In this document: one piece after another, positions 5,986-33,974 of the stretch
Numbering within the stretch: the first letter of the stretch is position 1
How the letters are laid out: every line of letters begins with the position of its first letter
From: a virus
Length of the DNA stretch: 38,087 bases
IMG/VR virus record: IMGVR_UViG_3300049561_000013
Coordinates: 1 to 38,087 of that record
Direction: 5' to 3' (one strand)
The notes under the pieces: generated by a model
The model's input: only the letters and a program-made list of their open reading frames with translations
Database searches by the model: none
What the model was told of the DNA's origin: nothing
Made by a program: the position numbers and the translations under genes

Positions 5986-6639
5986 ATGAGAGACAACATG
6001 AAGTTTGACGAATATATACCATGGGCAATTAGAACAGAAAATGTGAACGCGATGAGCATACGACAACGTATGTTGGATGATAATGTTATTAGGATGCTTC
6101 ACGCCGTTATTGGCATGACTACGGAAATTGGCGAATTGACAGAAGCCATCCACAAATTGGATAGTCATCGAAACGAAGCAGAGTGGGCGAATTTTCGTGA
6201 GGAAGTTGGTGATGTGTTTTGGTATGTTGCTGTTATGTATGACGCAGCGGTTGCCAAATTTGGCCAAATAGCAGTGAGGATACCAACATGGGATCATTCT
6301 TGGGCGAATGGTGATTGTTTGGAAACGTCAAAGCAAATCTCTTTGGAAGGTGCGTTGGCTTCTACTGTTGGTGCGTTGGCGAATTTGATTAAAAGACATA
6401 TTTTCTATGGCGATGAATTGGTAGTGGATGCATTGTTAATGAGATTGCATAACGTGTATAAAACATTAAGGTTGTGTCTCGATTTTTATTACAGCGGCGC
6501 ATCGTGCACATATTATAATACACTCGCCGATAACATAGAAAAATTGAGAAAAAGACACGGTAAAAAATTTGATGACGTGGGCGTGGTGGATTGGAATGTC
6601 GAAAGAGAATTAAGTCATATGTTTGGTCATCGGCAATAA
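5986..6639 (+). CDS. MazG-like nucleotide pyrophosphohydrolase
   Basis: A 217-residue all-alpha protein. Metal-binding motifs of the MazG/dUTPase-like superfamily are visible: TEIGELTEA (about residues 45-53) and, after about 20 residues, FREEVGDVFWYV (about 68-79), giving the ExxE...ExxD pattern. The C-terminal half repeats helical character (ALASTVGALANLIKRH, then NTLADNIEKLRKRHGKKFD), as in larger phage members. The family hydrolyses (d)NTPs to monophosphates and pyrophosphate; here it could shape the dNTP pool during replication. ATG 5986 and ATG 5998 are both possible starts; the second has GAGAG at suitable distance. It is the first of two MazG-like domains in the window (see 15652). 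Confidence 0.75.
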   Translation: MRDNMKFDEYIPWAIRTENVNAMSIRQRMLDDNVIRMLHAVIGMTTEIGELTEAIHKLDSHRNEAEWANFREEVGDVFWYVAVMYDAAVAKFGQIAVRIPTWDHSWANGDCLETSKQISLEGALASTVGALANLIKRHIFYGDELVVDALLMRLHNVYKTLRLCLDFYYSGASCTYYNTLADNIEKLRKRHGKKFDDVGVVDWNVERELSHMFGHRQ

Positions 6640-9539: not shown

Positions 9540-9544
9540 ATGAT

Positions 9545-9565
9545 TGAGGGAATAGGCACCCCTCA
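9545..9565 (+). promoter_or_regulatory. Hairpin at the predicted transcript 5' end
   Basis: TGAGGG (9545-9550) and CCCTCA (9560-9565) form a perfect 6-bp stem with a 9-base loop. It begins at the expected transcription start of the promoter at 9511. Stem-loops at the extreme 5' end of phage early mRNAs can stabilise them. That role here is inference. Confidence 0.4.
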
Positions 9566-9590
9566 GCGCGACGTGAAATTGGAGAACGAT

Positions 9591-10778
9591 ATGGGTGATA
9601 AATTTTTAAAATTTGACGATAAGGGCGAAAAGATACAATGTAAAATTTGCGAATGCTATTTTCACAGGTTGGAAATACATCTCAAAAAAGAACACAACAT
9701 CACCAAGGAACAATATTTATCTCAATATCCAAACGCCGCTACAATCAGCGTAGCAGCCAGGAAGAACGCATCGTTGTCAGCAAAACAATCGATGCCAAAC
9801 GTTATAGCAGAGGTGTTTCGTCACAAATCGGAATCACATTTAATCAAACAAGGAAGTGACGCAGAGAGAATATTTAAAATTGGCGTGTCACAACTTAAAA
9901 TGGTTCAAGATTCCGAATTGTCTCAATTGCAAAAATCGCATGTCCCTAAATATGATGAACAATGGATAATGGACACAAGGGAAATGGAATATTTGGAAAT
10001 TGCGTCCGTTGGAATAGAGGATGGTGATAATATTTTTATTTGGGGGCCACCTGGCGTTGGAAAAACCACACTGGTGAAACAATTGGGTGCCATAACAAAT
10101 ACGCCAGTTTATATTTTTCAATTTACCAATGGTATTTCGTTGGAAGATTTTATTGGTGAAACTAAACTCGTCACGGATGAATGTGGAAATAATGTTACTG
10201 TGTGGTGCGATGGGATGTTTACAAGGTGTTGGCGGTTGGGTTATTATATTGTGTTTGATGAATTAACGGCAGCTCCTGCGAATATTATGTTGAGATTGCA
10301 TGGATGTTTGGATGGAGATAGTTTGGCGTTGATCGAAAATGGCGGTGAAATAGTTCTTAAACATCCGCGCACTTGTATTTTCGCTACGGATAACACAAAT
10401 GGTCGTGGTGACGATACTGGTATGTTTAGTGGTACAAATGTACTTAATGAAGCAACGCTTGATAGATTTGGTACCACCATTCATTTTTCACACCCAGATA
10501 GTCAATCAGAAGAAAAAATTTTGGTGGCGAAAAGTGGTATAAATAAGGAGCAGGCAAAACTTATGGTTGGCGTTGCTAGATTAGTTCGCGAAGCCTTTGT
10601 TAATGAACAATGTTATTGTACATTTTCAACCAGACGATTGATTGGATGGGCGAAAAAAACTCTGAGGTTTGATAATGTTAGGAAAGCTGCTGAAGTTGCA
10701 ATATTAGGTAAATTGAGTAAGGATGATGCAACATTCGTGGATGCTATTATACAAAGGATTTTTGGCGGAGCAATATGA
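9591..10778 (+). CDS. CobS-like AAA+ ATPase with N-terminal zinc finger
   Basis: A 395-residue protein from ATG 9591, chosen because GGAG (9581-9584) is well spaced and the predicted promoter starts transcription after ATG 9540. Residues 14-45 hold a C2H2-like finger of MucR type (CKIC, then HLKKEHNIT and QYPNA). The AAA+ domain of the MoxR/CobS group follows: Walker A WGPPGVGKTTL (about 147-157), Walker B IVFDELTAAP (about 216-225), sensor ATDNTNGRGD and an arginine region ATLDRFGTTIHF. In cobalamin synthesis CobS pairs with CobT to insert cobalt. In phages the pair occurs without that pathway and its task is unclear. It overlaps the cobT-like gene by four bases. Confidence 0.85.
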   Translation: MGDKFLKFDDKGEKIQCKICECYFHRLEIHLKKEHNITKEQYLSQYPNAATISVAARKNASLSAKQSMPNVIAEVFRHKSESHLIKQGSDAERIFKIGVSQLKMVQDSELSQLQKSHVPKYDEQWIMDTREMEYLEIASVGIEDGDNIFIWGPPGVGKTTLVKQLGAITNTPVYIFQFTNGISLEDFIGETKLVTDECGNNVTVWCDGMFTRCWRLGYYIVFDELTAAPANIMLRLHGCLDGDSLALIENGGEIVLKHPRTCIFATDNTNGRGDDTGMFSGTNVLNEATLDRFGTTIHFSHPDSQSEEKILVAKSGINKEQAKLMVGVARLVREAFVNEQCYCTFSTRRLIGWAKKTLRFDNVRKAAEVAILGKLSKDDATFVDAIIQRIFGGAI

Positions 10779-12604
10779 TGAAAAAAGCAATTACTATGGT
10801 GAGTAAATTTCAAAAAATTGCTCGTGCGATGTCTAAGAATTGGGATGTAATTGTTGTGCCATCGGGAATTAAATGTTCTACTGATGGTAATAGAATATTT
10901 TATCCATTCAACGCTGATCATTTACAAGAGGCATCCCAGAAAATACTTCATGGTTTGTTGGATCACGAAATTTCTCATATCGCTGAAGAACGTGCACATA
11001 AAGCAAATGGTTGGTGTACTGCTATGGATATAATGAATAGTATTGATAACAATAAATTGAGATTGATTTTTAATGTTTTTGAGGATATACGTATAGAAAA
11101 CAAATATTCTGGATTGTATGTAGGCATGGGCGAAAATCTCCGTGAAGCGGCTAAATATGCTGTGGATTTGTTGAAGAAAAAAATAATTAATGGTGGTGTA
11201 AATTTTTGGCCAGCCATTGGTGGTGCGATATTGATGTCGGCGAATGGTTGCGATATGGAGTGGTTGCCCGTTCAATATCGGCCGTATATGGTATCCATTG
11301 TGCAAGAAATTATTGAAAGCAAACATGCTATGCGTGCAGAGGATTCATTGGGACTTGCTTATCGTGTGATGTCTAAAATTGGCGATACATCCACCGATAC
11401 ATCCAATGATACATCCACCGATACATCCACTGATACGTCCACTGATACGTCCACCGATACATCCGATGATACATCCAATGATACGCCCACCGATACATCC
11501 AATGATACATCCAATGATACATCCAATGATACGCCCACCGATACATCCAATGATACGCCCACCGATACATCCAATGAATATGAAAATGGTGTTGGTGCGT
11601 TGATTGAAGAGATCAACGGCGATACGGATATTGATGATTTGGTTGATGGAATTAGGCACGAGATGCACATCGAGGCGGCGATGGATGTTTTCACTAATGA
11701 AAGATATGTGCCCAATCCTAACGCTGTTGCGTTGGATAAGTGGATAAAACCACATACGGATCATTCGATAAATCATAAATTGTACACTAAAGATAAGGAT
11801 TTTGTGATGTCTCAAATCACAGGGATGAGAGGAAAATTATTGGGTGTGATTAAAGGCAAAGCGGTGTTCACGGTGGAAAGGGGCAAATGCAGGGGTAGGA
11901 TTGATAAACGATCACTACATAGAGTGCCAACCGGATGCAAAAATATTTTTAAAAGTATGAAGTGTGGCGAATCTCTTAATACGGCGTTTGCTATCGCAAT
12001 AGATTTGAGCGGTTCCATGGGCGATGGTAATAGACGTGATACTAAATCAAAATATGCAAAATTGATGGTACTGGCATTGTGTGAAACATTTGTGGCGTTG
12101 CGTGTTCCTTTTGAAGTGATAGGATTTCATACAAATGTTTCACATTGCGGCCCCATAATCCCAGGGACGCAGAGGGACGAACCATTGGAGTTTGTGTTAT
12201 TTAAAGAATTTGGTGAGTCTTATGTATCATGTAGATACAGACTTAATGGCGTGCACGGTACCGGTAACAACATTGATGGAGAATCTATATTTGAAATAGC
12301 AAAAAGATTGTCCGCTAGACCAGAGCAACGGAAAATACTATTTGTGGTTAGCGATGGAATGCCTCGTGGGGGCGGCGTAGGGATTGAAATGTTGGAAAAA
12401 CATTTGCGCGATGTTGTTAAATTAATTACCTCTTGTGGTATTGAGGTATTGGGAATTGGTGTTAAAACTAATGCTGTAGAGAATTTTTATAATGGATTGA
12501 CTGGTGCTACTAATATTTCAGTATACGATTTGAATCAATTGGCAGTATTGGTGTATAGAAAAATGAAAGAAATGTTTGTGAAGAGAATACAAAGGGCACA
12601 ATAA
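10775..12604 (+). CDS. CobT-like VWA-domain protein with HExxH motif and tandem repeats
   Basis: A 609-residue partner of the CobS-like ATPase; ATG 10775 overlaps its stop. The N-domain carries LLDHEISHIAEE (residues 61-72), an HExxH zinc-metalloprotease-like motif at 64-68. Residues 204-267 are sixteen near-identical tetrapeptides DTS(T/N/D) or DTP(T), a flexible acidic spacer. The C-terminal von Willebrand A domain has MIDAS AIDLSGSM (about 408-415) and a second strand LFVVSDGMPRGGG. MoxR-type ATPases with VWA partners usually act as remodelling or metal-insertion machines. If the HExxH is active, this pair could be an ATP-driven protease, which is inference. The substrate is unknown. Confidence 0.85.
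   Translation: MMKKAITMVSKFQKIARAMSKNWDVIVVPSGIKCSTDGNRIFYPFNADHLQEASQKILHGLLDHEISHIAEERAHKANGWCTAMDIMNSIDNNKLRLIFNVFEDIRIENKYSGLYVGMGENLREAAKYAVDLLKKKIINGGVNFWPAIGGAILMSANGCDMEWLPVQYRPYMVSIVQEIIESKHAMRAEDSLGLAYRVMSKIGDTSTDTSNDTSTDTSTDTSTDTSTDTSDDTSNDTPTDTSNDTSNDTSNDTPTDTSNDTPTDTSNEYENGVGALIEEINGDTDIDDLVDGIRHEMHIEAAMDVFTNERYVPNPNAVALDKWIKPHTDHSINHKLYTKDKDFVMSQITGMRGKLLGVIKGKAVFTVERGKCRGRIDKRSLHRVPTGCKNIFKSMKCGESLNTAFAIAIDLSGSMGDGNRRDTKSKYAKLMVLALCETFVALRVPFEVIGFHTNVSHCGPIIPGTQRDEPLEFVLFKEFGESYVSCRYRLNGVHGTGNNIDGESIFEIAKRLSARPEQRKILFVVSDGMPRGGGVGIEMLEKHLRDVVKLITSCGIEVLGIGVKTNAVENFYNGLTGATNISVYDLNQLAVLVYRKMKEMFVKRIQRAQ
11384..11575 (+). repeat. Sixteen 12-bp tandem repeats in the cobT-like gene
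   Basis: Units follow GATACATCCACC or GATACATCCAAT with variants GATACGTCC and GATACGCCC. They are in frame and encode DTST/DTSN/DTPT. Length changes in multiples of 12 bp would keep the frame, so copy number may vary between relatives. The GATAC core also appears in the repeats at 26283 and 37833. Confidence 0.95.
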
Positions 12605-14574: not shown

Positions 14575-14615
14575 TGGAATGCCTAATTCATCTAAAACTA
14601 GGCGATGGTGTCTCT

Positions 14616-14679
14616 GGTGGCGCCTTGCCGTTCTCCAACCGTTTAACAGCGGATTCATTGCAAGGCGCCGCCAATTTTT
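14616..14679 (+). terminator. Long hairpin with T-run, possible intrinsic terminator
   Basis: GGTGGCGCCTTGC (14616-14628) pairs with GCAAGGCGCCGCC (14660-14672), 13 bp with one G-U, followed by AATTTTT ending at 14679. The 31-base loop is long for an intrinsic terminator and contains a weak inner hairpin (CCGTT with AGCGG). The stem is GC-rich in an AT-rich, gene-free stretch (14575-14689). It could end the cobST-sigma operon or act as a leader structure for the flavoenzyme gene, whose AAGGTG site begins just after it. Confidence 0.55.
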
Positions 14680-14689: not shown

Positions 14690-15655
14690 ATGGTGAAAAG
14701 AGTCATAATAATTGGTGGTGGTATATCGGGTTTGGTGGTTGCTAACGTATTTTCCAAATATGCTTCGCACGTTGCCGTAGAAGTGTATGAATCTGGCGTT
14801 GTTGGCGGCGAATTTGTATTGGGTGGATTGAAATACATCCATCAATCCAGGGCGATGGAAGATTTTTTGGATGGTCTTGGGATTTATTGGTGCGATTATA
14901 GAGTAAGGGGGGGAATATTATTGAGAGGGGAGGTCAGAAAATATCCATTATTTTTATCGCAATTGAGTAAGGATGAGGCTATCCGTATTCAACGCGATCA
15001 TTATCGCAAGACTAGATTGATGGAATTAGGAGATTTTGATGATACTGCAATGAACGAACCAGCCAACGCTAAATCAAATAATGCATTGAATTGTGATTTT
15101 CAACGATTGGTTGATGTATTGGCATCTAATTGCAATATAATTAAAGCATCATTGATAAGGGTTATAAACGACAAGGTTTATTTGAGCAACAATACGGTCA
15201 GACAATTTGATTATTTGGTTCTGACCATACCGTTGTGGATTATAAAATTGGTGACCGATTACGAGATTGCATCTGCCATAGCGATGAAATTGAATATAGC
15301 GATAGTCAAAGGAACACGTAACACATACGCTGGTTGGGATTATGTGTATACTCCATACACTCCATCAAATTATATTCACCGAATATCGTATGGCGATGGT
15401 GGATATGCTGTTGAGGCTAATGGCAAATTGGATGAAGTTAGGTTATATTCTGATTTAAATTTTTTGTTTAAGAATGGATGGCGTTTGGAAGGGATAAAAA
15501 AAAATTTGAAAGGACATTTACTTCCATTGGATCAAAAAATAATTGTGCCATCGAATGTGGCATTATTGGGTAGATTCGCGGCATGGGAATCAAGGATGAC
15601 TGTTGATGTTACGCTTAATCGTGCTATCGAATTAGGGAAGCGATGGTTTGAATGA
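14690..15655 (+). CDS. FAD-dependent oxidoreductase (amine oxidase / UDP-galactopyranose mutase-like fold)
   Basis: A 321-residue flavoprotein. The N-terminus VKRVIIIGGGISGLVVANVF is the Rossmann dinucleotide-binding motif (GxGxxG at about residues 9-14) with the acidic end VEVYESG. The C-terminal signature VALLGRFAAWESRMTVDVTL followed by NRAIELG matches the second FAD-contact region of the amine oxidase, protoporphyrinogen oxidase and UDP-galactopyranose mutase group. It is shorter than most of these, so the substrate domain is reduced. It heads a block of nucleotide enzymes coupled by overlaps (ATGA at 15652). An oxidation step on a nucleotide is inferred from these neighbours. ATG 14690 or GTG 14693 may be the start. 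Confidence 0.75.
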   Translation: MVKRVIIIGGGISGLVVANVFSKYASHVAVEVYESGVVGGEFVLGGLKYIHQSRAMEDFLDGLGIYWCDYRVRGGILLRGEVRKYPLFLSQLSKDEAIRIQRDHYRKTRLMELGDFDDTAMNEPANAKSNNALNCDFQRLVDVLASNCNIIKASLIRVINDKVYLSNNTVRQFDYLVLTIPLWIIKLVTDYEIASAIAMKLNIAIVKGTRNTYAGWDYVYTPYTPSNYIHRISYGDGGYAVEANGKLDEVRLYSDLNFLFKNGWRLEGIKKNLKGHLLPLDQKIIVPSNVALLGRFAAWESRMTVDVTLNRAIELGKRWFE

Positions 15656-16560
15656 GCAGATTGAAGGAAATTTGGAAGCGTCAGTTGGAACAACAAATCG
15701 GATTCAATATGGATCCAGAAGCAATGACGAAGGTGCGTAAAATAGAGGTGGCCAAGGATTTGTTATTGGGATTGGATGAGGAGGTGGCTAAATTGGCAAA
15801 CTCTGCCACGCACTACAAGGTGCACATACTTAGGTCCACAGAGATTGAAAAAGCGAACGTTGCTGAGGCCGTGGTGGACGTATTGAAATATGCAATAGCC
15901 ATCGGGCAACTATATGGATTGACTGATACTGATTTGTACGATACGTTTCTGAACAAATCTACCGTGGTGGCCGATAAAGCGCGTGGTGAAAGGTTGTTGC
16001 TGGAACGAGATACGCGGGTGATATTATTTGATTTGGATAATGTTATTGCTGATATGTTAGATTGGGACATAGGATTGAAAAAAGCACGTGGGCAGGCGAT
16101 GGATGGCATGGGCGATGTAATGGTTACCATGCTGGAGTCGATGAAGGAAGAATTTTACAAAAGTAATGGATTTTTGAAATTATCTCCTGTAGATTCTGCT
16201 CCAGAAAGTATTCGATTGTTGAAAAGTTATGGTTGGAAAATTGTGATTATATCCGCTAGGCCAATATGGCAATATCGGCACATATATTCAGATACCGTGC
16301 AATGGTTGAATAAACATGGTATCGAATATGATTTGCTGTTATTCAACAAGGATAAGGCCGAAGCAATATATGAACACATCTTTCCAGCCATGCCATCATA
16401 TTTGGTGGAAGACAGAGAGAAACATGTTTTGGAAGTATCCGAATTGGGGATCAAGGTGTTGGTGATGGATTATTCATATAATGAGACAATCAAAGATACA
16501 AATTTGATTACACGCGTGTACGGTTGGAATGAAGTGATTAGTGTGATAGGAAGGCCATAA
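15652..16560 (+). CDS. Fusion of MazG/dUTPase-like NTP pyrophosphohydrolase with HAD 5'-nucleotidase
   Basis: A 302-residue two-domain protein. Residues 1-115 are all-alpha with KDLLLGLDEEVAKLAN and, about 30 residues later, NVAEAVVDVLKYA, the paired acidic helices of MazG/dimeric-dUTPase enzymes. Residues 123-300 form a HAD domain: nucleophile motif I FDLDNVIADM (Asp127 and Asp129), motif II IISAR, and the later acidic motif YLVEDREKHV. The HAD part resembles the 5'(3')-deoxyribonucleotidase group. The two activities in series would take a dNTP to dNMP and then to nucleoside, removing a chosen nucleotide from the pool. The substrate is not visible from the sequence. Confidence 0.7.
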   Translation: MSRLKEIWKRQLEQQIGFNMDPEAMTKVRKIEVAKDLLLGLDEEVAKLANSATHYKVHILRSTEIEKANVAEAVVDVLKYAIAIGQLYGLTDTDLYDTFLNKSTVVADKARGERLLLERDTRVILFDLDNVIADMLDWDIGLKKARGQAMDGMGDVMVTMLESMKEEFYKSNGFLKLSPVDSAPESIRLLKSYGWKIVIISARPIWQYRHIYSDTVQWLNKHGIEYDLLLFNKDKAEAIYEHIFPAMPSYLVEDREKHVLEVSELGIKVLVMDYSYNETIKDTNLITRVYGWNEVISVIGRP

Positions 16561-16564
16561 CGTC

Positions 16565-17527
16565 ATGGAACCTAAAGTAACATTGTTGAGTTGGACACAA
16601 CAGCCGCTGGAGACAGTTTATTCTGTGTGGCGTGCATCCAAAACAGAGAAGACATTGCTTTCACCTATGGAGGTTTCCACTATCATATCGAAATCTGAAA
16701 TTGAAGATACATTCAGGGCAATCATTGCTCAGAGAATACCGATTGGAGAACACATTAATTTTGTGTTTATGTTGGAAGGGGTGTCTGTTAGTTGGAGGGA
16801 GCAGGCAGTTAGGCATCGTATAGGTACACATCCATCGCCAGAAAGATTGGGTGCGGATATGACGGTGGATATAATGCCTAATTTACACAATAGTTCTTGG
16901 TGGTCCCAATCAATGCGTATTCAAAATATGGGTCGATTTTACGATGATGAGATGTTTCGTGTGCCTGATACATTGAAGGGGAAAGTAGTGCCGCGTGAAG
17001 CGCTAAATAATGGATACGATGCTACGCTGTTGTATTATCAAACTATGAGTCGTATCCAAGATGCTTACAATTCGTTGGTTGCTGCTGGAGTTCCCTTGGA
17101 AGACGCAAGGGAATTAATACCATTAGGAGCACAACATCGTATTAGTTGGAGTCTCAATATGAATTCACTCCAGCACATTCTGGGAGAAAGGGGTTGTTGG
17201 ATTCTTCAACTTGGTATATGGGGGCCTATCATTAAAGGCATGGTACGAGAGTTGGCTACAAAAATACATCCAATTTTTTATGAAATGATTTCGCCGCCGT
17301 GTATGGATGGTGATGAATTTAATGGGTGTGTATATAAAGAGGAATGCAAGAGGCGGATGAACAGCGAGGACAATCTTCCGCCGTGTCCCTTGTATGTGAA
17401 TTATCATTATTATCCACTTTTCAGTAACATTGAATTCCCTATGGTTGAAGAAATGAAAATACGGGCAGAGCAATACAGAAATTTTTGGGGTAGAAATCCT
17501 TATACAGGAAAGAGGAACGCGATATGA
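16565..17527 (+). CDS. ThyX-family flavin-dependent thymidylate synthase-like enzyme, divergent signature
   Basis: A 320-residue ThyX homologue. Family features are EHINFVFMLEGVS followed by REQAVRHR (about residues 59-85), and PLEDARELIPLGAQHRISWS then NMNSLQHILGERG, the nucleotide-binding helix region. The signature RHRxxSxNExSxR is strongly altered: at residues 83-96 it reads RHRIGTHPSPERLG, so the Asn-Glu pair, the second Ser and the final Arg are replaced. A C-terminal extension carries four cysteines (PPC, NGC, EEC, PPC; about residues 241-278), not part of the ordinary enzyme. ThyX methylates or hydroxymethylates position 5 of dUMP using folate and FAD. The changes suggest an altered substrate or chemistry. 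It overlaps the aminotransferase gene by ATGA. Confidence 0.75.
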   Translation: MEPKVTLLSWTQQPLETVYSVWRASKTEKTLLSPMEVSTIISKSEIEDTFRAIIAQRIPIGEHINFVFMLEGVSVSWREQAVRHRIGTHPSPERLGADMTVDIMPNLHNSSWWSQSMRIQNMGRFYDDEMFRVPDTLKGKVVPREALNNGYDATLLYYQTMSRIQDAYNSLVAAGVPLEDARELIPLGAQHRISWSLNMNSLQHILGERGCWILQLGIWGPIIKGMVRELATKIHPIFYEMISPPCMDGDEFNGCVYKEECKRRMNSEDNLPPCPLYVNYHYYPLFSNIEFPMVEEMKIRAEQYRNFWGRNPYTGKRNAI

Positions 17528-18687
17528 GTTTCTTGATGAATACAATAGAACCACGTGGTGGAATAGTGACTACAGGGGATTGCAAGGGAAGTTTTTTTGA
17601 AGGCGTCCACGAAGATGTTAGAATGTGGTATTTGGATTTTTTTACGGATTCTGGTACAGCATCATTAGGACACGGTTCTGTGTATCATTTGGATGCAAGA
17701 TCACGTGGTGCTGGCCAATCTCTTCATACGTTGAATCTTTTTGATAATGAATTGAGAAATCGGATTGCTGAGAAGGTGTGTCGTGTTGTAGGATATGATA
17801 AGATATTTTTTTGCAATAGTGGCACGGAAGCAATCGAAGCAGCAATCAAGTTGGCAAGAAAATATCAATATGATAAGCCATGGTTTGAATTGCAAGGTCG
17901 GTCAAAAGATCAAATCTGGTCAATAAAAGATGCATTTCATGGTAGGACTTATGGTGCTTTGGCAGCAAGTGATGGTCCAAATTATCATTTCGATGGGTTT
18001 GGACCATTTCCGGAAAGTTTTGTTTTTCAAGAAATTGATGAAATCAATTTTGATTTAGCAGCGGCAGTAATCATATCGCCTGTATTTGGTAATAATGATG
18101 TTCGCGTATATGATATTCGATGGTTAGAAAAATTGAAAATGATGTGCAACCAGAATGATACTTTGCTGATATTTGATGAGGTACAGACAGGTAGTGGCAG
18201 AACAGGCGATATCACATATGCAAAACTCATAGGAATACAACCAGATATAATGGCGTTGGCTAAAGGTTTTGGGATGGGATTTCCGGTTGCTGCAACTTTG
18301 GCTAATAATAGAGTTGCACAATCATTCACACCAGGCACACATTTTTCAACATTCGCTGGTAGTCCGCCTGCGTTGTATCACGTAGAAGTCATGTTTGATT
18401 GGTTGGATAATAATCTCTCTAAGGTGCGCAAGATGGGACAGAGGATGATGTATGATTTGGCGCAAAAGAATTGGGTGAAAACACCAAGGGGCATCGGAAT
18501 GTTTATTGCGTTTGAGATAAATGGGGATGCCAAAAAATTTTCAATGCGGTGTCTTGACAAGGGATTAGTGATTGGAGCATTCAGATCTAATCCGGTGAAA
18601 ATCACGCCGCCATTAAATTTGAGTGACGAAGAATGGGAAATTGGTTTGAGAATAATGGATAGAGTCGCCAAGGAGATGCAACTGTGA
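17524..18687 (+). CDS. Class III PLP-dependent aminotransferase
   Basis: A 387-residue enzyme close in length to acetylornithine and other class III aminotransferases. The visible path is FFCNSGTEAIEAAIKLAR (cofactor phosphate loop, about 98-115), KDAFHGRTYGAL (substrate and cofactor stacking, about 138-149), LLIFDEVQTGSGRTG (Asp218 contacts the pyridine nitrogen), and ALAKGFGMGFP with the Schiff-base Lys247. All catalytic residues seem present. Phages have no evident need for arginine or haem synthesis here. Sitting between a ThyX-like enzyme and a dNMP kinase, it may transaminate an aldehyde on a nucleotide. That substrate is inference. Confidence 0.85.
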   Translation: MSFLMNTIEPRGGIVTTGDCKGSFFEGVHEDVRMWYLDFFTDSGTASLGHGSVYHLDARSRGAGQSLHTLNLFDNELRNRIAEKVCRVVGYDKIFFCNSGTEAIEAAIKLARKYQYDKPWFELQGRSKDQIWSIKDAFHGRTYGALAASDGPNYHFDGFGPFPESFVFQEIDEINFDLAAAVIISPVFGNNDVRVYDIRWLEKLKMMCNQNDTLLIFDEVQTGSGRTGDITYAKLIGIQPDIMALAKGFGMGFPVAATLANNRVAQSFTPGTHFSTFAGSPPALYHVEVMFDWLDNNLSKVRKMGQRMMYDLAQKNWVKTPRGIGMFIAFEINGDAKKFSMRCLDKGLVIGAFRSNPVKITPPLNLSDEEWEIGLRIMDRVAKEMQL

Positions 18688-19268
18688 TAATAATGCTAGA
18701 TGGTGTTAATGGAGCAGGTAAATCAACATACGCTTATCTTCTGAAAGAAAAATTGGGAATTAATATCTGTCGGGTTTTCAGATCAGCAGACAAAAAATTG
18801 CATTGGGGTAGCACAGGGGAAGAATTGCGAAAGGAATTGACAGAACTTAAGATCCCTATAAATACACACGCAGATGATATATTCATGGCAGATTTCATGG
18901 CATCTTTTCAGGTTGATGCCATATTGGATAGAACTATTGCATCGGCAATAGTATATGGGAGAACATATAATCAATTTGATGGATGGTACACCGAAAAGAC
19001 AATAGCCAGGCGATTGCTGGATTTCTGGACATCTCTTATGGATAAATGTAAACCACCATTGATTTATATATGGATGGACGTTTCGTATGCCGTGGCAACA
19101 AAACGTTGTCATGATAGATGGTGTCCAGAAAAGAAAGATTTTGAAAAACTTAAGAAGGAATATGAGCAAATATTTTATCGCCTGCCTATGAAAAGGTTTA
19201 GATTGGATACTACCAATATTCACGAAAAGAGCGATGGTGTCGATAAGATACTCGATATTGTGAAATGA
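18684..19268 (+). CDS. Thymidylate kinase-like P-loop deoxynucleotide kinase
   Basis: A 194-residue kinase starting at GTG 18684, eight bases after AAGGAG and overlapping the upstream stop. Walker A GVNGAGKST occupies residues 7-15. An ILDRTIASAIVYGRTY segment (about 90-105) matches the DR(S/T) motif of dTMP and deoxynucleoside kinases, and a lid-like RCHDRWCPEKKD follows (about 142-153). It would phosphorylate a dNMP; the operon suggests a modified one. The 5-hydroxymethyl-dU DNA kinases of thymidine-hypermodifying phages are also P-loop kinases, so a DNA substrate cannot be excluded. Confidence 0.75.
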   Translation: MIIMLDGVNGAGKSTYAYLLKEKLGINICRVFRSADKKLHWGSTGEELRKELTELKIPINTHADDIFMADFMASFQVDAILDRTIASAIVYGRTYNQFDGWYTEKTIARRLLDFWTSLMDKCKPPLIYIWMDVSYAVATKRCHDRWCPEKKDFEKLKKEYEQIFYRLPMKRFRLDTTNIHEKSDGVDKILDIVK

Positions 19269-19269: not shown

Positions 19270-19659
19270 ATGGCGACTTTGGAAGAAATGAGAGAGCGAT
19301 TGTCTGTTGGTCTTTCGCTGTCTACAAAAAAGAAACACACCAAATGTGTTGATTGTGGTGGTAGGCATGCTGACATTGGAGATATATATTGCGAAACTTG
19401 TAAGGGCACAGGATATATTGAAATATCAGAAAAAATTAAATCGACCAAATTGGTTAAAAAATTTAAACAAATAAAAGATTGGAATAATCGTTACGCAATT
19501 AGCGCTGATGGTAGGGATTGTTTGATAAAATTTGGTAAATATAATGGTTGTACTCTTTCGCATATATATGGCGTAGATGATGGTTATTTGGTGTGGATGC
19601 TTAATGAAGATTTTCCAAACGATTTGAAGGATGTGTGTAGATTCGTGAGGGGAAAATGA
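19270..19659 (+). CDS. Zinc-ribbon protein with ExoX-type C-terminal domain
   Basis: A 129-residue protein. Residues 26-49 hold a DnaJ-like zinc ribbon (CVDCGG, then CETCKGTGY). Residues about 84-125 carry the pattern FGKYNGCTLSHIYGVDDGYL followed by WMLNEDF, which I recognise as the small domain found at the C-terminus of exonuclease X-like proteins and in phage proteins. A DNA-binding accessory role near the polymerase is reasonable. Its stop overlaps the polymerase start by ATGA, so the two are probably translated together. Confidence 0.65.
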   Translation: MATLEEMRERLSVGLSLSTKKKHTKCVDCGGRHADIGDIYCETCKGTGYIEISEKIKSTKLVKKFKQIKDWNNRYAISADGRDCLIKFGKYNGCTLSHIYGVDDGYLVWMLNEDFPNDLKDVCRFVRGK

Positions 19660-22600
19660 CCATCAAAGAAGATTTTGTGCATTTGCACGTGCATTCTGAT
19701 TATTCGCAGCTTGATGGTTGTGGCAAGGTGGCAGACTATGCCCAGAGAGCCAAAGATATGGGGCACCCGGCGATTGCTCTCACCGAGCATGGTACTATGA
19801 GGCAATATTATACACAGCAAGAGGCATGCCAAGAACGTGGTATAAAACCTATATATGGCATTGAGTTTTATGTTGCTAACGATATGCGCCGAAAAGGGTT
19901 GACTGACGATGAAAAAACAGAAATTACCAGAGATTTGAAAAGAGGTGAACGAAAGGGTGCAATCAAAGAATATGAAGAGCGTGAGGGTATTCGAGACAGA
20001 TGGCATCTGACCGTTTGGGCCCAGAACGATGTTGGCATGAAAAATCTTTTCAAATTGTCTACCAATGCATGGTTGGATGGATTTTATTACAAACCAAGGA
20101 TTGATGTCGAAGAACTTTTGAAATACAAAGATGGTTTGCTTGTGGCCACCGGGTGTCAATCGAGCATCATTATGGATCATGCTTGTTTGGGCAAGCGAAA
20201 ACGTGCGTTAAAAGAAGCGGACCGTTTATATGAGGCATTTGGAGATAAATTATGGCTTGAAGTGATGCCCCACGCTGGTAATGATCAGATATTGGCCAAT
20301 AAGTTTGCTATGGAACTTATGGGACGTTGGAAAAATATTGATATGGTGGCAACACAAGATGCTCATTATGTTGACGCTTCTGATTCTGAGGCACACGAAG
20401 TACTTCTGTGTATCGGCACAGGAGATAAAATGAAAAATCCCGATAGATTTCGATTTGGTGATGGCGAATTATATTTGAAATCACGAAAAGAAATGTTTCG
20501 TGATTTTACTAAAAACCATGATTATATGGGCAGCAAACTTATTAAACGTGCGTTGAATAATACATTAGTTGTGTCCAATATTATAGATGAAGACATTGTA
20601 AAAATAGATAGGTTTGCTTGTTTAATGCCACCGGTGGATGTGCCTAGTCGATATAACGGTGATGAATATGCTTACGTGAAAGCTATGTGCGTACACGGTT
20701 GGGAATGGCGAGAAATACCAAGTAGAGTGTCTACGTATGCAAAAAAACATGCGATAACATACAAAGAAGCGATGACTATTTACAAGTCTCGACTGAAACA
20801 CGAATTACAAGCAATTCAAAAACAAAAATTTATTACGTATTTTCTGTTGGTAAGGGATTTATATGATTGGGCGCGCAAACAGGATATTATGTGCGGTCCT
20901 GGACGCGGTTCAGCTGCCGGATCATTCGTGGCATATTTATTAGGTATCACATCTGTTGATCCTATTGAACACGCTTTGCTGTTTGAACGTTTTATTAATC
21001 CGGCACGTGTTGATATGCCCGATATAGATATGGATTTTGAGGATGTTCGAAGACAAGAGATCATCGAATATCTCAGACAAAAATACGGCGCAGATAGGGT
21101 GAGCCAGATAGCAACGGTTTCACAACTTAGTGGTAAGCAGTGTTTAAAAGACATATCAAGGGTGCTGGAAATACCGTATGCGGATGTGAATGAAGTAACC
21201 AACTCTATTATCGAACGGTCCAGCGGTGATGAGCGAGTCAGCCAGACAATAGTGGATTCGTTCAAAGACTTTAAAGTGTGTCGTGAATTCAATAAAAAAT
21301 ATCCCGATGTGTTGAAATATGCTCGGAAATTGGAAGGCATGCATAAGAATTTGGGTATTCATGCTGCTGGTGTGGTAACAAGTCCGGTGCCGTTGGTGGA
21401 TATTACGCCGCTGGAGGTCAGAAAGCACGCGGATGGCGATGTTGTTGTGACTGCTGTTGATATGAATGGGGTTCAAGCGCACGGTCTGCTCAAGATGGAT
21501 GTTTTGGGACTTAGAACGTTGGCGGTGTTGAAAGATGCTGTTAGGGCCATAAAAGAACGTCATAACGTGGTGATAGATTTAGAACGTTTGGATTTGAATT
21601 TGGCTGATATACTTCAAGCATTTACTGCCCATGATTATGTGGGCATTTTTCAATATGATTCACCGGGTGCGGATAAAATATGTACAGGCGTGTCGTTTGA
21701 TACATTTGAAGATGTGGCTGCTATGACTGCCTTGAATCGTCCAGGCACAGCAAGGAGTGGATTGGCCACCGAATATGTGGATCGTAAGAAGCACCCAGAA
21801 AAAAGAACACAAGGGCATTTTCATCCAAAGGTTTCAGCAATCACAGCGGATACCATGGGTGTCATTGTGTATCAAGAACATGTACAACGAATTTTTACAG
21901 ATATAGCTGGTTTCCCTCCAGGCACGGCAGATTCGTTGCGTAAGAAGATTGCAAAAAAATTTGGTGACGAGACAATCGGGAAAGAACGCGAGAATTTTAT
22001 TCGTGGGGCGCGTGAGCACTCTGGAATCGATGAAAAGATTGCCGGGAAAATAATGGATGCGATAACATTTTTTGGATGTTTGAAGTGCGATACTATGATT
22101 TCCACGCCAAGTGGTTTAAAAAGAATTGACCATTTGAGAGATGGCGACGCGGTATATTCATATTTAAATGGTAAATTGGTTGTTAATACGATAAAGTCTG
22201 TTGGTATTTCTGGTGTTAAAAAAATAGTCTTAATGGATACAACGTGCGGTACAGTATTTTCAACATTGGAGCATTGGTGGAGAAATGGTTTTGGTGAATA
22301 TATTCAAACTAAAAAGTTGAATATAGGAGATAAATTGGAGGTTGTAAATGTGTATAATGGAAGGATGTACAAGGGAAACATTGGCAAAAGGATTGTGCGG
22401 CCCGCACTACCAACAAAAATACAGAAAAGAAAAAACGGAATCAGGAAATCCTGTTGGTTCAATACACAGCAAAACAAGTATTCGTGGCAAAGGGTGGAAA
22501 AAAGGTCTGGACAAGACGCATCCATCAATCGCGGCGCAATCCGAAAAGATTTGTGGTTCAAAAAATCCTTCTTGGGCGGGTGGCCATATATCAGAATTCA

Positions 22601-24368
22601 GAAAGATAAGAAAAGAATTATTGAAAATAAACAAAACGTGCCAACATTGTGGTTGCAAACCATTGAAACACCAAGCGCCAAATATGAAATCTCTTCACGT
22701 CCACCATATAGACAGGAATCCAAAAAACAACGCATTGGAGAATTTAGAGGTGTTGTGCCAATCATGCCATTCGTCGGAACATATGGAAGACAAAATGAAA
22801 GCAGGTTTCACGCATCAGTAAAATCAATAACTTATGTTGGATTGGCAGAAACGTGGGATATGGAATGCGTTAATGAACCTAATAATTATGTGCTTGCTAA
22901 TGGTCTTATAAGTCACAATAGCTATGGATTTAATAAAAGTCACGCAACATCTTATGGTGTTATAGCATATTGGGGCATGTATTTGAAAGTGAATTATCCG
23001 TTGGAATTCTATTGGGCATTATTGAAAAACACACCAGAGAGGATACGCATCCAAGCATTCGCCAAGGACGCGAAGCGGCATGGCATAGAATTGTTGCCGC
23101 CTGATGTGTCTGTATCTAGGCGTGAGTTTGCTATAGACCCAGCAAGAAACGCAATTAGAGGCAGTCTGGTGGATATCAAGGGAGTTGGTGAAGCGGCATC
23201 GCAATCCATAATGGATAATCAACCATACACAGACTTATTTGATTTTTTAACGCGTGTAGAAAGAAGGAAAGTACATAGAGGAGTGACATTAGCATTGGCT
23301 AAATCTGGAGCGCTCAAATTCATACCAAATATAAAATGGTTCGTTGACAATATAGACTCCTTCTGGAAGGAATGGAACAAGGGTAAAGGCGGTGCTACGC
23401 GCGCAAAGGAGATGCTCAATGCATCCACGGAACAACCAGATTATGCTGATGAGGAAAGGCAACTCATAGCATCTCGTGTAAATCCATTGGCGTTTGGTAA
23501 GCATCCAATCGACGCTTACAAAGATTTCATAGATAAAAATGTGAAAGTGCCAATGGTGATGATGTCTGATGAATCTTTTTGGGAGGACAATAATGACAAA
23601 GGGGTATATATTTGTGGCGTTATACTGGAAGTGAAATACAATCAGATAGGCGATTTTCACACAGGAGAATTGCCCTCAGAAAGTGATCGAAAGAAAATGT
23701 TTTGGGGACGCCGATATGCCAACGTCAACGTGGAAGACGCAGGCGGTAAACAGAATCGTATCAAGTTTGACATAGATATTTTTGATGATATGAGAGAGTT
23801 GATTGATGCTGGTATCGGTACACCGGTAATTGTTCATGCCGTGCCCAACAAGCAATTTGAAAATTTGAGAGCACATTTCGCGATAGATTTGGAAGGATAC
23901 AGGAAAAAAATAGAATTTAATGAGAGATTGAATGTATGGGAAAGTATCATCGCAGGGCAACATCCAGCGCAAATGGTTATTTGGAAAGCAAAGGGTTTGA
24001 TGATTGGTGAACAAGTTGCTGAACAAAGAACTCAGAACATTCAATTTTTTGAGAATAAAACACATAAATTTACAGGCGTTGTGTTGCAAATTCGTTTCAA
24101 ATATGATAAAAAAGATAAGTTAATGGCATTTTTTAGTATGATTGATGCGGTGGGAAATTCCATTGATTGTATTTGTTTTGCTTCTAATTGGATTGCGGAG
24201 TTTGGTAATATAATCAAGGCAGGCAATTTATTATCAATTGAATTGTCTCGCCAAAAAGACATTAGAAATAAGCGTAAGTGGCAATATTTTTTTAATGGTG
24301 GGAATATTCATTGGTATAAAAATCATCCAAAAAATATTAATCTAGGTAAGGTAATAAGCAATAGATGA
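19656..24368 (+). CDS. dnaE: DNA polymerase III alpha subunit (DnaE-type) interrupted by an intein
   Basis: A 1570-residue precursor, about 1289 residues without its intein. The N-terminal PHP domain has HLHVHSDYSQLDG and ALTEHGTM (residues 8-50). The C-family polymerase core has CGPGRGSAAGSFVAYLLGIT (about 412-431), MPDIDMDFED with the catalytic aspartates (about 452-461) and LLKMDVLGLRTL (about 610-621). The intein occupies residues 808-1088 and splits FFG from SYGFNKSH, a highly conserved helix of the family. The last 480 residues include a helix-hairpin-helix-like GVGEAASQSIM region and an OB-fold-like region. It is the replicative polymerase of this phage; activity requires splicing. Confidence 0.93.
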   Translation: MTIKEDFVHLHVHSDYSQLDGCGKVADYAQRAKDMGHPAIALTEHGTMRQYYTQQEACQERGIKPIYGIEFYVANDMRRKGLTDDEKTEITRDLKRGERKGAIKEYEEREGIRDRWHLTVWAQNDVGMKNLFKLSTNAWLDGFYYKPRIDVEELLKYKDGLLVATGCQSSIIMDHACLGKRKRALKEADRLYEAFGDKLWLEVMPHAGNDQILANKFAMELMGRWKNIDMVATQDAHYVDASDSEAHEVLLCIGTGDKMKNPDRFRFGDGELYLKSRKEMFRDFTKNHDYMGSKLIKRALNNTLVVSNIIDEDIVKIDRFACLMPPVDVPSRYNGDEYAYVKAMCVHGWEWREIPSRVSTYAKKHAITYKEAMTIYKSRLKHELQAIQKQKFITYFLLVRDLYDWARKQDIMCGPGRGSAAGSFVAYLLGITSVDPIEHALLFERFINPARVDMPDIDMDFEDVRRQEIIEYLRQKYGADRVSQIATVSQLSGKQCLKDISRVLEIPYADVNEVTNSIIERSSGDERVSQTIVDSFKDFKVCREFNKKYPDVLKYARKLEGMHKNLGIHAAGVVTSPVPLVDITPLEVRKHADGDVVVTAVDMNGVQAHGLLKMDVLGLRTLAVLKDAVRAIKERHNVVIDLERLDLNLADILQAFTAHDYVGIFQYDSPGADKICTGVSFDTFEDVAAMTALNRPGTARSGLATEYVDRKKHPEKRTQGHFHPKVSAITADTMGVIVYQEHVQRIFTDIAGFPPGTADSLRKKIAKKFGDETIGKERENFIRGAREHSGIDEKIAGKIMDAITFFGCLKCDTMISTPSGLKRIDHLRDGDAVYSYLNGKLVVNTIKSVGISGVKKIVLMDTTCGTVFSTLEHWWRNGFGEYIQTKKLNIGDKLEVVNVYNGRMYKGNIGKRIVRPALPTKIQKRKNGIRKSCWFNTQQNKYSWQRVEKRSGQDASINRGAIRKDLWFKKSFLGGWPYIRIQKDKKRIIENKQNVPTLWLQTIETPSAKYEISSRPPYRQESKKQRIGEFRGVVPIMPFVGTYGRQNESRFHASVKSITYVGLAETWDMECVNEPNNYVLANGLISHNSYGFNKSHATSYGVIAYWGMYLKVNYPLEFYWALLKNTPERIRIQAFAKDAKRHGIELLPPDVSVSRREFAIDPARNAIRGSLVDIKGVGEAASQSIMDNQPYTDLFDFLTRVERRKVHRGVTLALAKSGALKFIPNIKWFVDNIDSFWKEWNKGKGGATRAKEMLNASTEQPDYADEERQLIASRVNPLAFGKHPIDAYKDFIDKNVKVPMVMMSDESFWEDNNDKGVYICGVILEVKYNQIGDFHTGELPSESDRKKMFWGRRYANVNVEDAGGKQNRIKFDIDIFDDMRELIDAGIGTPVIVHAVPNKQFENLRAHFAIDLEGYRKKIEFNERLNVWESIIAGQHPAQMVIWKAKGLMIGEQVAEQRTQNIQFFENKTHKFTGVVLQIRFKYDKKDKLMAFFSMIDAVGNSIDCICFASNWIAEFGNIIKAGNLLSIELSRQKDIRNKRKWQYFFNGGNIHWYKNHPKNINLGKVISNR
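22077..22919 (+). other. Intein in DnaE (residues 808-1088 of the precursor)
   Basis: Block A is CLKCDTMISTPSG with the nucleophile Cys808. Block B is VFSTLEHWWRNG with the Thr/His pair. Block F is VGLAETWDMECV and block G is NYVLANGLISHN ending in His-Asn, followed by Ser1089 as the +1 nucleophile. All splicing residues are present. The 281-residue length would normally include an endonuclease domain, but residues 898-1055 in this frame are a basic sequence with no motif. They are the out-of-frame reading of the HNH gene at 22348. The site lies two residues upstream of the place used by the cyanobacterial split DnaE intein, relative to FNKSH. Confidence 0.93.
22348..22821 (+). CDS. HNH homing endonuclease nested out of frame in the DnaE intein
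   Basis: A 157-residue protein in the +1 frame relative to dnaE. It has its own start: TTGGAGGT (22335-22342), six bases, then ATG 22348; an in-frame TAA (22345-22347) sits directly before the ATG. The N-terminal zinc-finger-like part is CIMEGCTRETLAKGLCGPHY, common in free-standing phage HNH proteins. The HNH core has CQHCGC (about residues 94-99), then LHVHHIDRNPKNNALENLEV and LCQSCH. The gene lies exactly between intein splicing blocks B and F; its TAA (22819-22821) is just before block F. It would cut intein-free dnaE alleles and drive homing. Confidence 0.88.
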   Translation: MCIMEGCTRETLAKGLCGPHYQQKYRKEKTESGNPVGSIHSKTSIRGKGWKKGLDKTHPSIAAQSEKICGSKNPSWAGGHISEFRKIRKELLKINKTCQHCGCKPLKHQAPNMKSLHVHHIDRNPKNNALENLEVLCQSCHSSEHMEDKMKAGFTHQ

Positions 24369-25499: not shown

Positions 25500-26840
25500 A
25501 TGGCAGTTAATGCTAAAAAAATGAAAAAAGGTTATGAAAAACATCAAAGAAATGGTGATTTTTGGACGCCACCAATCGGAGATACGTTGGTGTATATTCA
25601 CGGGCAATGCCGTGAAGACGACAAGTATGAACCCACAGAAGGAGTGAATTATGTCGAGGTGGCAATTCATTATGGTGTTGGTCCCAACAAGGCTATGGTG
25701 GTTTCGCTTGATCCGGCGGCAAATCCTATCGTGGAGCATCCGTTCGTGAAGTCATTTCTTAAAAAAAAGAAAAACAAATTCAAAATGCCCTCAAAGTGTC
25801 CAATGGCATTGGCAATGGAGAATGGTACCCTATCTGAGACTGAAGCTGACGAATCGCGACGTCTTCAGCGTTTTATGTGGGGAGTAACTCCAATCAAATA
25901 TCGTTCAGATAAAGGGGATTGGCAGAAATTGCCTCCGCATCCATCGGTGATGGTGGTCGGCAAGACGATATTCGATGGTATCATGGAATTGTTTATTGAT
26001 GTTGGTGATATCACAGATGTGAATGGAGCGGTGCTTGCTCTCATCCACAGAGAAGGCAAAAACAAGAACGATACTCGGTATAAAATTACAGCAGATATGG
26101 TCACTCTTCGCAAGCCAATTAAACTTGGTTCGGAATTGCAAAATAAAATCGTTGAGGCCATGAAAGATGGCGGGGATTGTGATTTGTTCAAGGTTGTTGC
26201 GAATATGATCAAAACTCCAGAAGAAATTGAGGCATTGCTCAACAACGTCAAAACTGAAGATGATACAGATGGTGATTATGGCGATGATACCGATACCGAT
26301 GACGATACCGATACCGATACCGATGACGATGCCGATACCGATGATGACGATGATTCCGATGCTGATGCCGATGCCGATGACGATGCCGATACCGACGATG
26401 ACGATGACGACGATGACGATGCCGATACCGATGATGACGATACACTTATTATTGATGGTCGCGACGACGATGACGACGATGACGATGATGACGACGATGA
26501 CGATGATGACGATGATGACGATGATGACGATGATGACGATGATGACGCCAAAACCAAGAAAAAAAGCACGCCACCAATCGCCAAGAAGACCAAAGAAATT
26601 AAGGTTGATAAGCCGTTTAAAGTTGCCAAGGAGACCAAGGAAATCAAGATTGATAAGCCAATTAAAGTCACTAAGGAAACCAAGAATCCCAAGGCAAATA
26701 AGGCAACCAAACAGGAGGATGATGATGAACTCGGATTGGATGCTTTGGATAGGGAGTTGGATAGAGTTTCCAAAGGCAAGCCATCCAATATCGTATCTAA
26801 CAAAACCGTTAAAATTGAGTCCAAAAAGAAAAAAGGTTAG
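25500..26840 (+). CDS. Putative single-stranded DNA-binding protein with poly-Asp and Lys-rich tails
   Basis: A 446-residue protein behind AAGGAG. Residues 1-250 are globular: FWTPPIGDTLVYIHGQCRED and VNYVEVAIHYGVGPNKAMVV suggest an OB-like beta core as in phage SSB families that begin with an 'FW.P..G' motif. Residues 262-349 are extremely acidic (DTD, DDD and DAD repeats), ending in 28 consecutive aspartates (322-349). A Lys-rich repeat region follows (KEIKVDKPFKVAKETKEIKI and similar). SSBs use acidic tails to recruit partners, but here the tail is large and internal. Position before recA and after a possible mediator fits the role. Confidence 0.55.
   Translation: MAVNAKKMKKGYEKHQRNGDFWTPPIGDTLVYIHGQCREDDKYEPTEGVNYVEVAIHYGVGPNKAMVVSLDPAANPIVEHPFVKSFLKKKKNKFKMPSKCPMALAMENGTLSETEADESRRLQRFMWGVTPIKYRSDKGDWQKLPPHPSVMVVGKTIFDGIMELFIDVGDITDVNGAVLALIHREGKNKNDTRYKITADMVTLRKPIKLGSELQNKIVEAMKDGGDCDLFKVVANMIKTPEEIEALLNNVKTEDDTDGDYGDDTDTDDDTDTDTDDDADTDDDDDSDADADADDDADTDDDDDDDDDADTDDDDTLIIDGRDDDDDDDDDDDDDDDDDDDDDDDDDDDDAKTKKKSTPPIAKKTKEIKVDKPFKVAKETKEIKIDKPIKVTKETKNPKANKATKQEDDDELGLDALDRELDRVSKGKPSNIVSNKTVKIESKKKKG
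26283..26546 (+). repeat. Acidic low-complexity repeats (GATACC/GATGAC) in the SSB-like gene
   Basis: The coding strand is a chain of GAT, GAC, ACC and GCC codons in hexamer units such as GATACC, GATGAC and GATGCC. It ends in 84 bases of pure GAT/GAC codons (26463-26546) encoding 28 Asp. The alternating use of GAT and GAC shows expansion followed by drift. The region produces long but meaningless open frames on both strands. Confidence 0.95.
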
Positions 26841-33360: not shown

Positions 33361-33974
33361 AAATGAAAAATACAGAAAAATTCACTTTATCAGAACGTTT
33401 GGGTGCATTACATACGCGTTGGAGCGGATGTCGGCGTTGTCAATTATGTAATCACAGAAAAAATGTCGTTTGGTGTAGAGGTAATCCGGAAACCAAATTG
33501 TTGATTATTGGTGAAGCTCCAGGAGATCACGAAGATGAGATGGGCAAGCCATTTGTTGGCGCGTCTGGTAAGTTGTTGGATGAATTGTTCAAGAAGGCAA
33601 CGGGGAAGTCATTAGAACGTGTTGCGTTGATCACCAACATCGTAGCATGTAGACCACCGGCCAATCGCGTTCCTGAAATTGAAGAAGTAAAAGCCTGTAG
33701 AGATAGGCTTTATGAAATAGTTCAAATTGTTTCACCAAAAATTATTTTGCTCGTAGGATCAACGGCAGCGAAAAGATTGGCAGGTATCTATCCAATAGGT
33801 CATTGGAGAGGTAAGTTGGTGGATGCCGATATTAGGGATTCCATATTGAAATCTATAACGTTGCCAGCCATACCCACATACCATCCATCATATTTGTTGC
33901 GCATGGGCCGTAGAGCGGATATTGTTGACGTGGTGGTAGGGGATATAGAAAGAGTTTGGAAAGAAATTGTATGA
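33357..33974 (+). CDS. Family 4-type uracil-DNA glycosylase
   Basis: A 205-residue protein whose ATG 33357 overlaps the exonuclease stop. Cysteines for a [4Fe-4S] cluster are visible (GCRRCQLC, then NIVACRPPANR). The catalytic region is LIIGEAPGDHEDEMGKPFVG followed by ASGKLLD, and the leucine-loop motif is HPSYLLRMG. This matches UDGa/family 4 enzymes that remove uracil from DNA. In this phage it may police uracil, or act on another 5-substituted uracil, given the ThyX-like cluster. The latter is inference. Confidence 0.85.
   Translation: MKMKNTEKFTLSERLGALHTRWSGCRRCQLCNHRKNVVWCRGNPETKLLIIGEAPGDHEDEMGKPFVGASGKLLDELFKKATGKSLERVALITNIVACRPPANRVPEIEEVKACRDRLYEIVQIVSPKIILLVGSTAAKRLAGIYPIGHWRGKLVDADIRDSILKSITLPAIPTYHPSYLLRMGRRADIVDVVVGDIERVWKEIV

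Follow-up and report, generated by a model that had tools for sequence, protein, structure and literature searches.

The virus record IMGVR_UViG_3300049561_000013, which has no named host, was analysed over its whole length of 38,087 bases (the window). Five adjoining genes on the plus strand (14690-19268) encode a flavoenzyme, a MazG-HAD fusion, a ThyX-like protein, a class III aminotransferase and a dTMP-kinase-like protein. We consider it moderately probable that the product of this operon is a hypermodified pyrimidine deoxynucleotide, formed before the DNA is synthesised. A C5-substituted dUMP would be made, oxidised, aminated, phosphorylated and polymerised, and dTTP and dTMP would be removed. 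An initial annotation of the sequence had proposed a pathway of this kind and is supported in part. All five genes were recovered in an open reading frame (ORF) check of the window, and the assumption of one functional unit was borne out by a search of other phages for the same gene set, which is conserved in 19 other viral loci.

Organisation and conservation of the gene cluster

The genes for the flavoenzyme (321 aa; 14690-15655) and the MazG-HAD fusion (302 aa; 15652-16560) overlap by ATGA at 15652-15655. The same overlap joins the genes for the ThyX-like protein (320 aa; 16565-17527) and the aminotransferase (387 aa; 17524-18687) at 17524-17527, and the kinase gene (194 aa; 18684-19268), which has a GTG start, overlaps the aminotransferase gene by GTGA at 18684-18687. 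The genes had been described as abutting or overlapping. This holds for three of the four junctions, but between MazG-HAD and ThyX a gap of 4 bases (16561-16564) was found. The five genes are translationally coupled or nearly so. The operon extends past the kinase: after 1 base follows a gene for a 129-aa protein with an ExoX-like C-terminal domain (19270-19659, plus strand; Pfam 3.7e-7), which overlaps by ATGA the gene for DNA polymerase III alpha (DnaE) with an intein (19656-24368, plus strand). A hairpin with 14-nt arms, 31 nt between the arms and then a T-rich tract lies at 14615-14673 (plus strand; minimum free energy -34.7 kcal/mol, z -2.9), directly upstream of the flavoenzyme gene; the arms are followed by AATTTTTATT. 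It is probably a terminator or attenuator before the operon. Because this strong hairpin and T tract stand just upstream of the first gene, the unit probably starts at 14690.

Relatives were collected by an alignment-guided search with the ThyX sequence alone. It yielded 62 viral loci, and 53 were kept after 9 with identical ThyX cores had been dropped. Flavoenzyme, MazG-HAD fusion, ThyX-like protein and class III aminotransferase occur together in 19 of the 53 loci; 18 of these also contain the kinase, and the remaining one (L092) ends before it. None of flavoenzyme, MazG-HAD and aminotransferase was found in the other 34. The recurrence of the set in 19 further, non-identical viral loci shows that it is not due to chance. 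The 19 loci with the full set and locus L065 were grouped as class A (20 loci), the other 33 as class B. L065 belongs to the same ThyX clade and keeps the kinase, the ExoX-C-like protein and DnaE; its contig edge lies about 1 kb upstream of ThyX, a class I methyltransferase adjoins ThyX and no aminotransferase was seen. As the classes are defined by gene content, counts per class are descriptive, and the joint presence (19/53) or absence (34/53) is less circular; phylogenetic relatedness inflates all of these counts.

The genes of the module share one strand in all 20 class A loci. Of 87 neighbouring gene pairs, window included, 67 are no more than 60 bases apart (median -8). Relatives of the 129-aa protein were detected in 10 of the 20 class A loci, and dCMP deaminase, a source of dUMP, in 9 of the 20 records. 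In the ThyX tree the window falls into a class A clade of 13 rows (98/92), and the class A label (21 rows, with L065 labelled class A though no aminotransferase was seen there) changes 2 times compared with a shuffled mean of 13.6; for both results the bootstrap had not settled. Searched over whole records, the aminotransferase was present in the window and in 19 of 20 class A records, and absent from the 25 class B records searched (of 33) and from five named phages.

Converse searches returned mostly the same contigs again, plus a few new ones. With the flavoenzyme 18 loci were obtained, 17 of them with ThyX and aminotransferase; the exception ends at a contig edge. With the aminotransferase 33 loci were found. 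The module is present in 25, and for 24 of these the retrieved stretch also matches ThyX; the remaining 8 are stand-alone, with none of the other module genes. The module also occurs on other backbones, namely in L083, where no DnaE was seen and a sulfotransferase follows the kinase, and in L111, whose DnaE is only 36% identical. Single-protein scans of viral contigs with ThyX, aminotransferase and flavoenzyme gave no relative, since the peptides that were picked automatically came from variable stretches. By tblastn against named phages no relative of flavoenzyme or kinase was detected. The MazG-HAD fusion gave just two weak matches there, in the HAD region, and aminotransferase matches were at most 34% identical, many of them from short or bacterial-looking records.

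Class B loci (n=33) frequently contain a nucleoside deoxyribosyltransferase (29), a YfbR-like nucleotidase (28), DNA polymerase I (28) and DUF6378 (22). Their variable partner is a radical SAM protein (13/33) or a short-chain dehydrogenase (SDR), the latter in 6/33 by profile, a count that misses one member of the SDR cluster in L108 (seen in L033; the tree used 7). SDR and deoxyribosyltransferase beside ThyX were found neither in the window nor in the 20 class A loci. Because the 34 loci free of aminotransferase and flavoenzyme mostly carry other enzymes instead, the system resembles, in gene content, a ThyX core whose tailoring enzymes can be exchanged.

Several variants of the module were observed. 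In L083 and L012, on a different phage backbone, the sulfotransferase gene overlaps the kinase gene, and a further decoration of the base is possible. L077 (record G008) has two class III aminotransferases in one module, which suggests two amination steps or two substrates. In L157 the module comprises aminotransferase, kinase and DnaE. Its sole match to ThyX is a weak one (72 bits) located after DnaE, and the locus may form a link to the PB1-like ThyX branch. An extra gene, C19 (about 260 aa, motifs FGGSGW and ADFN), was seen inside the module or close to it in 6 of 20 class A loci (L011, L061, L063, L064 and L111 among them) and is absent from the window. Its product possibly binds S-adenosylmethionine. 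The reading of C19 as aminocarboxypropyl-transferase-like was dropped, with one weak Pfam match (TRM5-TYW2, 1.3e-4) and no PDB match.

Predicted functions of the enzymes

The ThyX-like protein matches Pfam Thy1 (PF02511) with 70.3 bits (gathering cut-off 24.8; 2.4e-19) and remains below the cut-off of the thyX equivalog model TIGR02170 (54.1 vs 87.9 bits). Its structural model (mean predicted local distance difference test score, pLDDT, 80.6; with residues 84-110 below 50) adopts the ThyX fold, with a VIA Z of 15.8 over 180 residues and a root mean square deviation (rmsd) of 2.3 to 3ge9, an atypical ThyX of C. glutamicum, and a Z of 15.3 to TM0449 (1o26). Residues R83, R118, R182 and R209 are invariant in all 17 alignment rows. 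They align with R78, R90, R147 and R174 of TM0449, which by numbering and role we take to be its dUMP-binding arginines. The residue aligned with TM0449 S88 is kept in 15 of 17 rows. Fold and dUMP-binding residues are thus shared with an ordinary ThyX. In contrast, the window protein has an insertion in the RHR region, a segment after the R174 position that is replaced by the subfamily motif R-x-C-W-I-x-Q-x-x-x-W-x-P, and a C-terminal extension with cysteines C246, C255 and C274 (kept in 17, 16 and 16 of 17 rows), besides its score under the equivalog cut-off. The assignment as a ThyX-type enzyme therefore stands for fold, Thy1 match and arginines, but the chemistry at C5 and the product are still predictions. 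With the dUMP residues kept and the region behind them not, this flavoprotein would attach a carbon substituent to C5 of dUMP.

For the flavoenzyme, sequence searches gave weak matches, largely limited to the N-terminus that binds flavin adenine dinucleotide. Its model (pLDDT 88.6) could be superposed over 316-318 of 321 residues on UDP-galactopyranose mutase (UGM; 3ukk and 4dsg) with a VIA Z of 26.6 and an rmsd of 2.9-3.0. Protoporphyrinogen oxidase (Z about 23) and amine oxidases (about 20) scored lower. The motifs GGGxSGL and GRFAxW are conserved in the alignment of relatives (A3). The amine-oxidase fold assumed in the initial annotation is therefore replaced by the better-fitting UGM fold, and the simple amine-oxidase reading was set aside; all these proteins belong to one superfamily. 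UGM shares the whole-chain fold with the flavoenzyme, which is however shorter (321 vs 465-517 residues in the best-matching structures), only 14-16% identical, and reaches 10.8 bits with the curated UGM model TIGR00031 (NCBIfam; cut-off 303.75). Since the UGM fold fits better than that of the amine oxidases, it is equally likely that the enzyme acts on a sugar-like substrate or a polyol and that it simply oxidises an alcohol or amine. The enzyme would oxidise or rearrange the C5 substituent to a carbonyl.

The aminotransferase, which depends on pyridoxal phosphate (PLP), was confirmed as class III, the kind that aminates terminal aldehydes (PF00202 Aminotran_3, 236.6 bits vs cut-off 30.5; 5.2e-70). 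Its nearest solved relative is the acetylornithine aminotransferase 2eh6 (2.3e-64), and it is ArgD-like; with 256.2 vs 410.05 bits it stays under the ArgD subfamily model TIGR00707 and below every NCBIfam cut-off listed. Lys247, presumably the catalytic lysine, is invariant in 10 sequences. The enzyme would convert the carbonyl to an amine with glutamate. As flavoenzyme and aminotransferase were found only together among the 53 loci, their sequential action is the simplest reading.

The kinase is dTMP-kinase-like. It is a P-loop protein with a weak match to PF02223 Thymidylate_kin (27.9 bits, cut-off 27; 2.3e-6) and 34.3 bits with TIGR00041 (cut-off 83.25), and its profile matches the Aquifex thymidylate kinase 2pbr (1.3e-9). 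From the aminated nucleotide it would form the diphosphate, which the host would convert to the triphosphate; this modified dNTP would be incorporated by the DNA polymerase III alpha that the phage encodes in the same operon.

In the fusion protein the HAD half resembles a deoxypyrimidine 5'-nucleotidase. It matches NT5C (PF06941) with 44 bits (cut-off 24.8; 2.9e-11), the profile of nine members matches human dNT-1 (2e-5), a cytosolic deoxyribonucleotidase, and D127 and D129 of the DxD motif are invariant in 9 sequences. The MazG half found dUTPase_2 at E=0.07 in the sequence search, and YpjD (E=0.036) and iMazG (E=0.037) with the profile of nine members. The fusion may clear competing dTTP and dTMP, or convert dUTP to dUMP.

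Relation to Bacillus phage SP-15 and other named phages

Base modification before replication is already known for phages, and the modified base of SP-15 has been known chemically since the 1970s. Named phages with ThyX relatives were examined, seven of them fetched by match and SP-15 by accession, out of 408 matching records. Among the matches listed, LIS04_124 of Listeria phage LIS04 scored best (23% identity, E 3e-19), and with the ThyX profile of the subfamily it reached 190 bits. LIS04 and SP-15 are both assigned to the genus Thornevirus. Conserved neighbours place LIS04_124 at the position that the SDR SP15_129 and the ThyX SP15_130 take in SP-15; a deoxyribosyltransferase adjoins this slot in both phages, and both records contain a dCMP deaminase. 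Two further SP-15 proteins, a YfbR-like one and a uracil-DNA glycosylase, are of kinds that class B often contains. When SP15_130 was tested for a direct sequence link to the ThyX subfamily of the window, none was found.

According to the accessible part of one report, more than 50% of the thymine in SP-15 DNA is replaced by 5-(4,5-dihydroxypentyl)uracil, with further additions, and the biosynthesis of this base is described there by hypothesis, with gp130 as a hydroxymethyluridylate synthase (PMC5977210). Titles cited in the same source report that the dihydroxypentyl base is made as nucleoside triphosphate and that it takes up label from ribose (PMC5977210). Hence SP-15 and LIS04 share a divergent ThyX in the same slot, and for SP-15 a C5-substituted pyrimidine at the triphosphate level is reported. 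SP-15 differs by its SDR, deoxyribosyltransferase and DNA polymerase I, by the lack of a class III aminotransferase, and by pathway genes that are assigned by hypothesis (PMC5977210). In view of the UGM fold and the link to SP-15, a side chain in the form of a sugar-derived polyol has to be seriously considered, next to the one-carbon chain to which the scheme of the initial annotation points.

Pbunavirus PB1, Wifcevirus FEC19 and mycobacteriophage Troll4 have a ThyX-like gene near DnaE together with HAD phosphatase-like genes, and FEC19 and Troll4 a FabG-like SDR as well. In contrast to the window they have no class III aminotransferase (0/5 named phages), and their ThyX belongs to a different region of the tree (100/98 branch). 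PB1 gp68 (L003) and its FEC19 counterpart (L005), which lie near ThyX-like, HAD-like and DnaE genes, give a weak match (2e-5) to the flavoenzyme profile and have GxGxxG and GRFAxW at their ends. By these similarities, Pbunavirus and Wifcevirus may carry a related pathway without aminotransferase. In full-text searches of open-licence literature, no listed paper was recognisable from its entry as a description of the five-gene module. For a Gordonia phage, FabG-like reductase, MazG, DnaE and ThyX-like genes are listed and, in the accessible part of that paper, not connected into a pathway (PMC11385102).

Weighing of alternative explanations

The module could serve the ordinary nucleotide supply. 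The ThyX-like protein would then make dTMP and the kinase dTDP, MazG/HAD would adjust the pools, and aminotransferase and flavoenzyme would meet an unrelated need for amino acids or cofactors. Thymidylate synthases and dTMP kinases are commonly encoded by phages, and the ThyX-like protein retains the dUMP-binding residues. No ThyA was found in the 19 records first searched, and 18 of the 19 have one ThyX each, so this sole thymidylate synthase could still make dTMP. However, the linkage of aminotransferase, flavoenzyme and MazG-HAD to the ThyX clade (19/53 together, 34 with none) is left unexplained, as are the swap for SDR or radical SAM elsewhere and the ThyX score under the equivalog cut-off. 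Because it does not account for the linked gene set, plain dTMP supply was set aside as unlikely.

The second alternative is a post-replicative modification. 5-Hydroxymethyl-dUMP would be made by the ThyX-like protein and incorporated, and the other enzymes would then act on the DNA as in phages M6 and ViI. The systems of M6, ViI, SP10 and phiW-14 are similar in that thymine is tailored at C5 by phage-encoded flavin- and PLP-dependent enzymes, and Lee and co-workers are said to have described in 2022 that such enzymes act on thymidine hypermodifications borne on DNA. These systems act after incorporation through a 5-hydroxymethyl-deoxyuridine (5-hmdU) DNA kinase. Its domain PF18723 was found in 0 of 51 records searched, the window among these records, some of which are fragments, whereas the same search detected it in the positive control M6 (1.4e-57). 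Furthermore, the kinase of the module is dTMP-kinase-like, and the nucleotide-pool enzymes point to monomers. With no 5-hmdU DNA kinase found and the control working, this route was set aside as quite unlikely. The pre-polymerisation route of the initial annotation is strengthened by the same result, but it had been presented as a departure from known systems, and dihydroxypentyl-dU of SP-15 is a precedent according to a title cited in the source on that phage (PMC5977210).

It is very unlikely that the product is a free derivative of a nucleotide, acting as antimetabolite, anti-defence decoy or signal: the structure library describes PolB, a ThyX homologue from Streptomyces cacaoi that presumably serves the nucleoside antibiotic polyoxin, as a UMP/dUMP methylase, but an operon that carries a dNMP-kinase-like gene and runs into the gene of the replicative polymerase fits a DNA precursor better.

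Several points weigh against the synthesis of a hypermodified nucleotide before replication, in addition to the possible dTMP formation by the sole ThyX. A UGM-like fold, known from a model, shows no function by itself. The MazG half is the weakest family assignment of the five genes, and the ExxE/ExxD residues, which we take to be the MazG motif, are partly lost in the window; the proposed fusion is thus upheld for HAD and weakly for MazG. SP15_130 is unmatched by the subfamily ThyX profile even at E 10, so that it is LIS04_124, found at the same genomic slot, that provides the link to SP-15. Searches of the window gave no match for SDR, deoxyribosyltransferase or YfbR. Like many of its relatives, the window is a fragment from an uncultured phage whose host is not known, and we know of no biochemistry for any member of the module.

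Other features of the window

The DnaE intein begins at about residue 808. Within its coding region, in a different frame, lies an ORF for an HNH endonuclease (157 aa; 22348-22821, plus strand; PF01844 6.4e-6), and it seems that one stretch of DNA encodes an intein linker and a homing-type nuclease in two frames. A separate MazG-family protein (5986-6639, plus strand; PF03819 6.8e-6) is possibly a second dNTP pyrophosphohydrolase. A protein of the uracil-DNA glycosylase superfamily (33357-33974, plus strand; PF03167 1.6e-31) is related to an SP-15 protein (8.1e-21). Around the operon there are further genes for UvsW-like and DnaB-like helicases, a primase-like protein, RecA, SbcC/D-like proteins, a 5'-3' exonuclease and an amidase.

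Upstream of the operon, 9540-12604 encodes a pair of the MoxR-VWA type: first a CbbQ-like AAA protein, then a CobT-like VWA protein that contains a long Thr/Asp/Ser repeat. A 446-aa protein with a very acidic low-complexity Asp run is encoded at 25500-26840, and a tandem-repeat protein (NAEVDTEG units; 37782-38087) runs off the right end. The Rfam search of the window found nothing, and a promoter scan remained at shuffle level (22 found, 20.9 expected). In the genome_contigs search 43 stretches matched; none was a relative, and hence no host or prophage was found.

Significance

Tentatively, a wider picture can be drawn, which we regard as possible. There may be a second, ThyX-centred route to hypermodified thymine, in which a ThyX relative whose co-substrate site is altered adds a chain of several carbons, possibly derived from a sugar, directly to C5 of dUMP. 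Interchangeable enzymes, either UGM-like flavoenzyme and aminotransferase, SDR or radical SAM, with methyl- or sulfotransferases, would finish it at the mononucleotide stage. The lineage of the window would have an aminated base, and dihydroxypentyluracil of SP-15 would come from the same kind of route.

If the proposed pathway is true, it differs from the best-studied thymine decoration in phages in that the building block is made before the DNA is copied. It would provide a genetic handle on the synthesis of large C5-substituted pyrimidine nucleotides by phages before replication. Amine-bearing dNTPs and polymerases that accept them are useful in DNA labelling. Furthermore, new amine-bearing DNA bases and a ThyX chemistry beyond methyl transfer would be predicted, and modified DNA would be expected in cultured phages, namely in LIS04 and, more tentatively, in the widely sequenced Pbunavirus group.

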